Source: Synechococcus sp. WH 8109 (GTDB taxonomy: Bacteria; Cyanobacteriota; Cyanobacteriia; PCC-6307; Cyanobiaceae). Taken from it: DNA of 64,000 nt. Below the pieces are notes generated by a model. The model saw only the letters and a program-made list of their open reading frames with translations, did not search any database and was not told the DNA's origin. Within the stretch, counting starts at the first letter, position 1. The number at the start of each line of letters is the position of its first letter. The position numbers and the translations under genes are program-made. Positions 4,537-23,441 of this stretch are shown in pieces. Location: NCBI RefSeq assembly GCF_000161795.2, contig NZ_CP006882.1, positions 1,178,001 through 1,242,000 of the forward strand. Reading direction: 5' to 3'.

Positions 4537-6222
4537 TCAGGGCTCAGTGTGTGCATTCTGAGCAGCGGCGCGCAGCTGCTGACGCAGGGCAGCATCACGA
4601 CCGCGGTCGCTGCACAACCGCAACAACACCGGCCGTTGCTGCGACAAGCCCCAGTCCAAGGCCTCCTGCAGATCCTCCAGACAGGCCACCTGGCGTCCAG
4701 GCACACCATGGGCTGCCGCCAAGGCCAGGGGATCCACCTGCTGGGGCATGGCGAAGAGCGATTCGAAGCCCGGCGTGGCAATGGGCAGCTGCTGAAAAAT
4801 GCCGCCGCCACCGTTGTCGATCAGCAGCACCAGCAGTGGTTGAGGTGCAGCAGCGGATGATGCATGCAGCCAGCCATTGCTGTCGTGCAGCAGGGCCAGA
4901 TCACCGGTCACCAGCGCCAATGGACCGAGATTCGCCGCCAGACCCATGGCAAGCGACAAGGTGCCGTCGATGCCCGAGGCCCCGCGGAAGCTGAAGCAAC
5001 GGTGGCGGCTGCAGGCGGGCCCGCCCCAGGTCAACCAGTCGCGCACCGGTGAACTGGCGGCCAGCATCACCGGCAACCGCTCCGGCAGGAGCTGGGGAAG
5101 CCAGTAGGCCAGGGCGGGCTCATTGACGGCACCACACAAGGGCAACTGGGCCTCGATCCACGCAGAGAGGTCGTCGGTGCCGACCGATGGCTTGCTCAGC
5201 GGGTCCAGAGCAGGCTGTTGGGCGATCCAGGCGGCCATGCCCCCCGACCATTGGCTGGACCTCTGCAGAGGATCCAGCGACCTTGAATCCCCTTCGGTGA
5301 TCAACAGCTGGGGGCCCCGGTGGCGGTGAAGCCAAGCCTCCAACCGCCGGCTGGCGGGCATGGGTCCCAGCCGCAACACCTGAGCGTCGTCAGGCAGGTT
5401 CAGCCGATCCAGTTGCAGCTCCCAGTGCTCGATGCGGTTGGGGCAATCGGGAGCAAGGGCAGCGAGGGGATCAGCCAGCAGAGGCCAACCGCTGAGGTTC
5501 AGCCAGCGATGCAGCGCCTGTTGAAAGGCCTCCACCGCGGGCGAAAGGCCCCGCCATGGACCTGCAATCACAATCCCCGGGCTCTCTGGATCGAGACGAG
5601 GCGCAGGCCCGGTCTCAGGCGAAGGCTCTGGGCAAGCCGTAGGCGGGAACACAACCGAAACAAGCTGTTGCTGCTGTTCAAGGGTGGTGTGCAGCGGCTC
5701 CTCGAAGGCCAGGTTGAGGTGAACCGGTCCCGGCGGCCCAGTGCCTACACCTTGAGCCCGCTGCCAGGCCTGAACCGCCAGAGCGTTGAGGGCGTCGTTG
5801 GACTGGGTGTGGACGCCATCTGCCGCTCCACCGCCAAACCAGCGACAGGCCGAGAGCAAAAAGGATTCCTGATTCACCGTCTGATTGGCGCCGCAGTTTT
5901 TAAGCCGGACGGGGCGATCCGCCGTGAGCAGCAACAAGGGCTGACAGGAGCGGTCCGCCTCCACCGCAGCGGGAAGCAGGTTGGCCACCGCGGTGCCAGA
6001 GGTAGTGACCACTGCCACGGCACGGCCATGGGCGGTCGCCATGCCGAGGGCCAGAAACGCGGCGGACCGCTCGTCGATGGCCATGACCAGCTGCAGCTTT
6101 GCCTGGGAGGCCAGCACGCCCGCCGCGGTTGCCAGGGGGCCGGAACGGCTGCCAGGGCAGAGCACCAGCTGCTTTAGCCCCCGGAGACATAGAGCCTCAA
6201 GCAGCGTGAGGGCGGCCTGCAA
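4537..6222 (-). CDS. menD: 2-succinyl-5-enolpyruvyl-6-hydroxy-3-cyclohexene-1-carboxylate synthase
   Basis: MenD is a thiamine-diphosphate enzyme that joins isochorismate and 2-oxoglutarate early in phylloquinone synthesis. The 561 residues match the family. The N-terminal domain has [16 protein letters not shown] and the cofactor glutamate region [15 protein letters not shown], followed by [18 protein letters not shown]. The C-terminal ThDP domain has [16 protein letters not shown] and the metal-binding [15 protein letters not shown]. The only standard start in frame is TTG at 6222. The residues just upstream (TIARAN) look family-like, so a rarer start a few codons earlier is possible; an in-frame stop limits any extension to about 16 codons. 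menB follows directly; lepB is divergent. Confidence 0.96.
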
Positions 6223-22865: not shown

Positions 22866-23073
22866 AAAATCTAGGCAGTGCAGATCGGCATCGCCTCGGG
22901 TGTCAACATCTAGCGACCGGCGCTTGCTTCACATCACGATGTGTAAGAACGACGGTCAATGTTCTCTCATCCAAACCAAGTACGTAACGGCACACAGTGG
23001 CGATAAAACGTACTAGTTGTTACGACAACGCAGGATCGAGCCAATATTTTGAGCTGATCCTGCCGACGTCAAC
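22866..23073. other. Upstream region of NblA-like pair
   Basis: No gene is seen. The region is AT-richer than its neighbours, with several TACGTAAC or GTTACGAC-like words. These may hold the promoter of the plus-strand small genes, but no clean -10/-35 pair stands out. Confidence 0.3.
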
Positions 23074-23247
23074 ATGGAGCCCATCGCTCTGACACTTGGC
23101 CAACAGTTCGACATCGAACAGCGCAGTCGCGATATCAATTCAATGACTGACGTCAAACAGCTCCAGGAGATCAGCAAAGATCTGCTTCTAGCCTGGCAAC
23201 AGGAGATTGCCCGCTCACGGGCGGCAGCCAGCCCACACAAGAAATAA
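23074..23247 (+). CDS. NblA-like small helical protein, copy 1 (57 aa)
   Basis: The product starts MEPIALTLGQQFDIEQRSRD and continues INSMTDVKQLQEISKDLLLA. NblA is the small protein that triggers phycobilisome breakdown under nutrient stress. It typically begins with a short lead, Leu-x-x-(E)QQF-x-(I/L), then has about ten residues to an Asn-Met-Ser-like helix cap and a second helix. The same spacing is seen here: QQF at residues 10-12 and N-S-M-T at residues 22-25. The end RAAASPHKK is basic. Assignment to the NblA/Ycf18 family is an inference from this pattern. The neighbouring gene (23283) is a divergent copy. Confidence 0.5.
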   Translation: MEPIALTLGQQFDIEQRSRDINSMTDVKQLQEISKDLLLAWQQEIARSRAAASPHKK

Positions 23248-23282
23248 CACTTCGTTACGATTGCATGAACTGCTTGTAAGTT

Positions 23283-23441
23283 ATGAACATGAGCTTGCCT
23301 CAGCAGTTCGAAGCTGAAGCGATCAAGCGGTCAATCAACGACACCGACGATCTCGACCAGTTGAAAGCTCTGGCACGGGAACTCGCAGACCTCTACGTGC
23401 GGCAGAGAGCTGCAACGGCCTGGGTGATCGCCGAGAAATAA
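23283..23441 (+). CDS. NblA-like small helical protein, copy 2 (50-52 aa)
   Basis: Two in-frame ATGs (23283 and 23289) precede SLPQQFEAEAIKRSINDTDD and LDQLKALARELADLYVRQRA. It aligns without gaps to copy 1 across about 40 residues: QQF, an Ile ten residues on, a loop rich in Asp/Asn/Thr, then a Leu-rich helix. The protein is shorter at the C-terminus and lacks the basic tail. It lies 35 bases downstream on the same strand. If the family call is right, it is a second, divergent NblA-like protein; otherwise it is a small paralogous helical-hairpin family. Confidence 0.5.
   Translation: MNMSLPQQFEAEAIKRSINDTDDLDQLKALARELADLYVRQRAATAWVIAEK

Follow-up and report, generated by a model that had tools for sequence, protein, structure and literature searches.

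Two short open reading frames, ORF-A and ORF-B, lie on the same strand, 35 nt apart, in the window (the whole 64,000-nt stretch of DNA analyzed here), which belongs to a genome of 2.11 Mb in one contig. They sit where the sequence-only reading had placed two adjacent genes for small helical proteins (23074-23441), and AlphaFold2 predicts two helices for each. The features of the locus are as follows.

23010..23023, + strand: NtcA-type site GTAN8TAC, an exact match whose first base lies 64 nt before the ORF-A start
23045..23050, + strand: -10 box TAN3T (TATTTT), 21 nt after the NtcA-type site
23074..23247, + strand: ORF-A, 57 aa, predicted subfamily A NblA-like helical hairpin (dN/dS, AlphaFold2 model)
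23283..23441, + strand: ORF-B, 52 aa, predicted subfamily B NblA-like helical hairpin (dN/dS, AlphaFold2 model)

ORF-A and ORF-B are true genes under purifying selection and not chance frames, because dN/dS is low and third codon positions are the most variable. Median dN/dS is 0.12 for ORF-A (variable sites by codon position 16/8/40, n=11 sequences) and 0.06 for ORF-B (16/3/41, n=10 sequences). The two probably form one operon. As the sequence-only reading had proposed, the proteins align with each other: they are 25% identical with no internal gaps in the family alignment, and each retrieves the other in six-frame searches of their own genome (E 0.026 and 0.030). The AlphaFold2 models are two-helix hairpins, with helices at residues 8-23 and 27-52 in ORF-A (mean pLDDT 87) and at 5-20 and 24-51 in ORF-B (mean pLDDT 91). 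A fold search (Foldseek/VIA) returned best Z-scores of 4.1 and 5.2, to proteins other than NblA; no NblA chain was listed among the 4 and 32 chains compared, which is uninformative for the NblA question because the query is a bare hairpin. Three of the eight neighboring genes scanned have a Pfam match (DUF1499, DUF2130, and MIF), and we rejected gene context as a guide to function because these neighbors are uninformative.

The pair is not isolated but part of a large family, most of it without a name. We gathered paralogues by searching 59 genomes with ORF-A and ORF-B separately, and coined the subfamily labels A, B (with a divergent B*), C, D, E, and F. Their own genome holds at least six members, ORF-A and ORF-B included: we found A, B, C (L092), D (L093), E (L095), and F (L094). 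A genome may hold up to seven copies. The D copy (L093, about 4572-4748, - strand; genome about 2029583-2029744) looks inactivated, because an in-frame TAA stands in place of the conserved Gln in its QxF motif. Scans of ORF-A, ORF-B, and six paralogues against Pfam and NCBIfam gave nothing near a curated cut-off. Of the 18 A loci that we read, 13 have B immediately after A and five (G006, G011, G016, G024, and G032) have no B downstream; G021 has B but no A. The tree, which is poorly resolved, places A near C and D, and B joins B*, E, and most of the phage members. From this placement A and B look like two old paralogues, and a recent tandem duplication as the origin of the pair is disfavored. 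Separately, 4 of 8 C loci have a phycobilisome linker gene nearby: in L092 (7617-8528) it is about 2.7 kb away from C, and in the three others a linker 80-98% identical to it sits at a distance of 2.5-3 kb. We judged this too weak a functional clue.

Canonical NtcA-activated promoters combine GTAN8TAC with a -10 box TAN3T, as described in passages of PMC3898017 and PMC9430850. The predicted promoter at 23010-23050 has both elements, and the exact site with its box occurs only there in the 64-kb window, both strands considered. The A loci come from 18 genomes among the 59 searched, with one more A-like place in G024 left out. All 18 keep the GT and the TAC, with the site beginning at -63/-64, and 8 keep the full GTA; a site with at most one mismatch, followed at 21-nt spacing by a TAN3T box, is present in 18/18 and exact in 8. 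The surrounding upstream DNA has otherwise diverged, and the NtcA-type site stands out as a conserved island upstream of ORF-A. Site and box also turned up at 6 of 8 B* loci, 3 of them with an exact match, and at 2 of 10 D loci. They were found at none of the 11 C loci (one with only 26 nt upstream), 7 E loci, or 5 F loci, and the site at neither of the two B loci that lack an adjacent A. Site plus box has a background rate of 1.9% in 150 nt, or 0.36% when the match must be exact, and the A loci are orthologous and not independent.

We compared the occurrence of the family with that of phycobilisomes and of NblA, the protein that earmarks the light-harvesting antennae for degradation. The family name Cyanobiaceae and the label Prochlorococcus-type, for small phycobilisome-free relatives, are our reading of the genome tables. 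The curated NblA model PF04485 scored above its cut-off in 170/242 cyanobacterial genomes versus 1/201 Cyanobiaceae, which bears out the statement in the sequence-only reading that NblA is absent or rare in marine picocyanobacteria. The single passing gene, from a phycobilisome-free genome, appears to resemble phage NblA. The genome paper of strain CS-601 (SynAce01) gives nblA and nblB as lacking (PMC6337551). The new family is present in 146 of the 201 Cyanobiaceae (E <= 0.01), and no full-length match was found outside Cyanobiaceae and cyanophages in the 242 cyanobacterial genomes.

Co-variation with phycobilisome genes, on whose presence the sequence-only reading had staked its proposal, was seen across the 201 Cyanobiaceae. 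We counted a genome as phycobilisome-bearing if it had at least three PF00502 (phycobiliprotein) genes, a threshold chosen in this analysis. The family occurs in 118/120 such genomes versus 28/81 with two or fewer PF00502 genes, and matches at E <= 1e-15 in 107/120 versus 0/81. Among genomes at least 90% complete, the counts are 97/97 versus 13/35, the latter with one weaker copy each, and 89/97 versus 0/35 at E <= 1e-15. Because one clade, the Prochlorococcus-type, dominates, the covariation amounts to few independent events, and its small p-values are not independent evidence. Genomes below the three-gene threshold carry at most one family copy. We read five of the 28 such copies (L148-L152), and they look E-like; three of the five were placed in the tree and fall in the E group (support 75). 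Such E-like copies, found where phycobilisomes are lacking, suggest that the family can outlast the loss of its presumed target, and they hint at a role for E outside phycobilisome breakdown.

Our favored reading of the locus, which we consider probable, is that ORF-A and ORF-B form a nitrogen-stress operon like NblA1/NblA2, encoding divergent picocyanobacterial NblA-like adaptors for antenna breakdown. The main rival to this antenna reading is an NblA-derived adaptor with another target: NblA descendants would have been re-purposed as nitrogen-stress adaptors that hand a non-phycobilisome protein to Clp. The single copy kept in 28 of the 81 genomes below the three-gene threshold, apparently E-like in the five that were read, would fit such a change of target, as would the multiple copies per genome, which suggest several targets, and a C-terminal half unlike that of NblA. 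The confinement of the strongest matches to phycobilisome-bearing genomes speaks against it, and we regard re-purposing as unlikely.

Does the family descend from NblA at all? The NblA/Ycf18 profile search suggested in the sequence-only reading came back empty: PF04485, whose gathering cut-off is 25 bits, gave no match to ORF-A or ORF-B at E <= 10, and no match in their genome at E <= 0.001 or E <= 1. The first-helix motif had been given as Leu-x-x-Gln-Gln-Phe; the motif common to the proteins is Leu-x-Gln-Gln-Phe, one residue shorter. The ten-residue spacing to a helix cap is correct for ORF-B (10 from Phe to Asp), whereas ORF-A and NblA have 11 from Phe to Met. NblA carries a conserved LTMEQ-type motif near its N terminus, according to a passage of PMC5083919. 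ORF-A has LTLGQ and ORF-B has LSLPQ in its place, so the glutamate is gone; EQ is retained in paralogues F (LSVEQ, own genome) and E (RLEQ). Genomes of family f23 (L265, L266, and L267) carry a divergent canonical NblA (L[TS][FL]EKQF ... LYL[GN]QQ). Judged by eye, its second helix is similar to that of the picocyanobacterial family, and it is a possible intermediate.

Profile-profile comparison with hhalign did connect the two families. The family alignment (A1, 32 rows) matched a narrow set of 13 NblA proteins with a probability of 90.3% (E 1.5e-6, 26 columns), and a diverse NblA set with 91.6% (E 8e-7, 34 columns). None of 150 column-permuted NblA alignments reached the score against the narrow set (best 18.9 vs 35.3), and the best of 100 permuted controls against the diverse set scored 15.7 vs 35.8. 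When viral members were added, the larger query aligned over 56 columns with the diverse set (86.6%), and the probability against the narrow set fell to 57.9%. Viral members alone gave 1.1% against NblA, and subfamily F alone 50.1% against the diverse set. The best NblA alignment covers mainly helix 1, and the C-terminal half of the family has no confident alignment to that of NblA, whose C-terminal residues bind the phycobilisome. In the PDB (177,635 sequences), the top match of the family profile was phage Gp77 (E 0.0047), with the NblA structures 3cs5 and 1ojh second and fourth (E ~0.2) among other helical proteins; searches with ORF-A, ORF-B, or F singly retrieved no NblA, and those with ORF-A or ORF-B nothing at all.

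Single-sequence scores were less decisive. With HMMER, 21 of 30 NblA proteins, closely related to one another, reached at least 12.1 bits against the family model, versus 2 of 12,000 shuffled sequences. The top real NblA (14.7 bits) is so close to the top shuffled sequence (14.4 bits) that we relied on the profile-profile tests and on where weak matches fall in whole genomes. We regard the positions of these weak reciprocal matches as the most telling test of homology. The family profile gave 23 matches outside Cyanobiaceae at E <= 0.1 in the 242 cyanobacterial genomes, at least 11 of them on canonical nblA genes; the remaining 12 lie off the listed nblA places, and most nblA-bearing genomes gave no match. 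In the reverse direction, PF04485 at E <= 1 gave 69 matches in the 201 Cyanobiaceae, at least 28 of them on family genes. One family gene (G161) aligned with profile positions 2-47 at 22.7 bits, just below the cut-off of 25.

The family is thus probably a remote homologue of NblA and, because the match is mainly to helix 1, not a member of PF04485. The kinship claimed in the sequence-only reading stands in this remote form, by the profile-profile scores and the weak-match positions, although the curated NblA model misses both proteins. A second rival would do without kinship: A and B would be small two-helix proteins that NtcA induces and that share no ancestry with NblA, perhaps inhibiting some enzyme of nitrogen or carbon metabolism, and their QQF would be convergent. 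A hairpin is a simple fold, the curated families of Pfam and NCBIfam contain no match, and the PDB searches, empty for ORF-A or ORF-B alone and led by a non-NblA protein for the profile, are what such proteins would give. We nevertheless consider this improbable, since weak matches in whole genomes land reciprocally on each other's genes, no permuted control among 150 matched the real score, and the family covaries with phycobilisomes.

The family extends to cyanophages. Nadel et al. reportedly described, in 2019, a divergent "nblA" of cyanomyoviruses and picocyanobacteria. We found family members in S-TIM5, S-SCSM1, PSS2, S-CRM01, S-SKS1, and Bellamy, and of 128 viral stretches picked out by pattern matching, 118 code for a relative of the S-SCSM1 protein. 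This protein, ORF237, annotated nblA, scored 41.2 bits against the host family model (E 5.4e-12, Z 1000) and the S-TIM5 protein 27 bits; the viral and host profiles matched at 98.5% over 57 columns. By its score, the S-SCSM1 nblA belongs to the A/B family. In the phage collection, B matched 7 records and C 11, all at E 0.009 or weaker, and ORF-A and F had no match. Four phage copies form a separate group, starred in the tree; a subfamily D-like member on an IMG/VR contig (L061, 3485-3658) falls with host D and not with these four. The Cyanobiaceae assemblies G361 and G290 encode NblA-like proteins (L132 1402-1713, - strand; L133 1423-1719, - strand), and the L133 gene adjoins an ORF that looks MazG-like by reading. 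Both proteins look phage-borne, and the MazG-like neighbor suggests phage DNA in these assemblies. That A and B themselves are phage-derived remnants or defense genes, as the members in six named phages and in most of the viral stretches might be taken to indicate, was already disfavored and we think it very improbable: within the genus the pair is kept together with its promoter and is under purifying selection, ORF-A has no match in the phage collection, and four phage copies stand apart in the starred group.

The viral scores also bear on what is already in print. The phrases "divergent nblA-like gene", used of Synechococcus WH8102, and "picocyanobacterial nblA genes", which comes with a tree, appear in passages of PMC9602691 and PMC7439483. 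Because the S-SCSM1 and S-TIM5 proteins score 41 and 27 bits, the A/B family is probably, at least in part, the group meant in those papers. The system was not as unrecognised as the sequence-only reading suggested it could be, since divergent picocyanobacterial nblA had been published (PMC9602691, PMC7439483). In the texts our literature search covered, we found no account of the A/B operon or the promoter in front of it, nor of the set of paralogues or their covariation with phycobilisomes, the data of the 2019 study lying outside the scope of that search.

Returning to the NblA1/NblA2-like operon, we propose the following sequence of events. Under low nitrogen, NtcA with 2-oxoglutarate would bind and turn on the promoter at 23010-23050, and A and B would be cotranscribed. 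The two hairpins would then pair, probably as an A/B heterodimer by analogy with NblA1/NblA2 of Synechocystis; Baier et al. reportedly found in 2014 that Synechocystis requires this heterodimer. The A/B dimer would dock on phycobiliproteins, our guess being phycoerythrin, which is a large antenna protein store of these cells. By docking on ClpC as well, it would bring antenna protein to the Clp protease for degradation. Directly supported are the genes and their selection, the family and its distribution, the sequence and conservation of the promoter, the hairpin as a prediction, and remote homology to NblA; action of the pair on phycobilisomes is what we infer from them. That the pair works like NblA seems to us just as likely as the operon reading itself.

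A bolder version of this model, which we offer tentatively and regard as less likely than not to hold as a whole, is that a radiated A-F set replaced the single NblA in picocyanobacteria. A and B, driven by NtcA, would be an obligate heterodimer that recycles phycoerythrin under nitrogen starvation; having no NtcA-type promoter, C, E, and F would serve other stresses or antenna parts, and cyanophage versions would strip the host antenna during infection. If the operon reading is true, A and B let the cell recycle its light-harvesting antennae as nitrogen runs out. The family, with a nitrogen-type promoter on the A/B pair, is a small gene set open to deletion tests, and through it the "nblA" found in many cyanophages is connected with genes of the host.

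Several known systems invite comparison. NblD is also a small nitrogen-induced protein tied to phycobilisome breakdown; PMC7760959 treats it as a separate protein. The phage family phrog_27081 of PHROGs, whose function is unnamed, resembles our family in matching B (2.7e-5) and paralogue C (3.8e-7), with ORF-A reaching only 0.044. The divergent "nblA" of cyanomyoviruses and picocyanobacteria would, by the S-SCSM1 and S-TIM5 scores, be the same family as A/B, and the published passages covered here concern one WH8102 gene and a tree, without the A/B operon, the promoter, the paralogue set, or the covariation. The closest parallel is NblA/Ycf18 (Synechocystis NblA1/NblA2, S. elongatus, and Anabaena). 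Its two-helix hairpins dimerize into a four-helix bundle, and it causes bleaching during starvation. According to a review (PMC7760959), the NblA homodimer can bind ClpC while its C terminus is on the phycobilisome. The A/B proteins differ from NblA in falling below the curated cut-off, in having LGQ or LPQ for LEQ, in second-helix and C-terminal sequence, in having several paralogues per genome, and in a distribution that, in our searches, was limited to Cyanobiaceae and cyanophages. They resemble it in size, in an ungapped L[ST]LxQQF first helix, in a predicted two-helix hairpin, and in being tied to phycobilisome-bearing genomes. Tandem pairs likewise occur among canonical nblA genes, in 5 of 23 genomes chosen for diversity (G036, G052, G077, G091, and G100), and the A/B pair adds to this likeness a predicted nitrogen-type promoter of its own.
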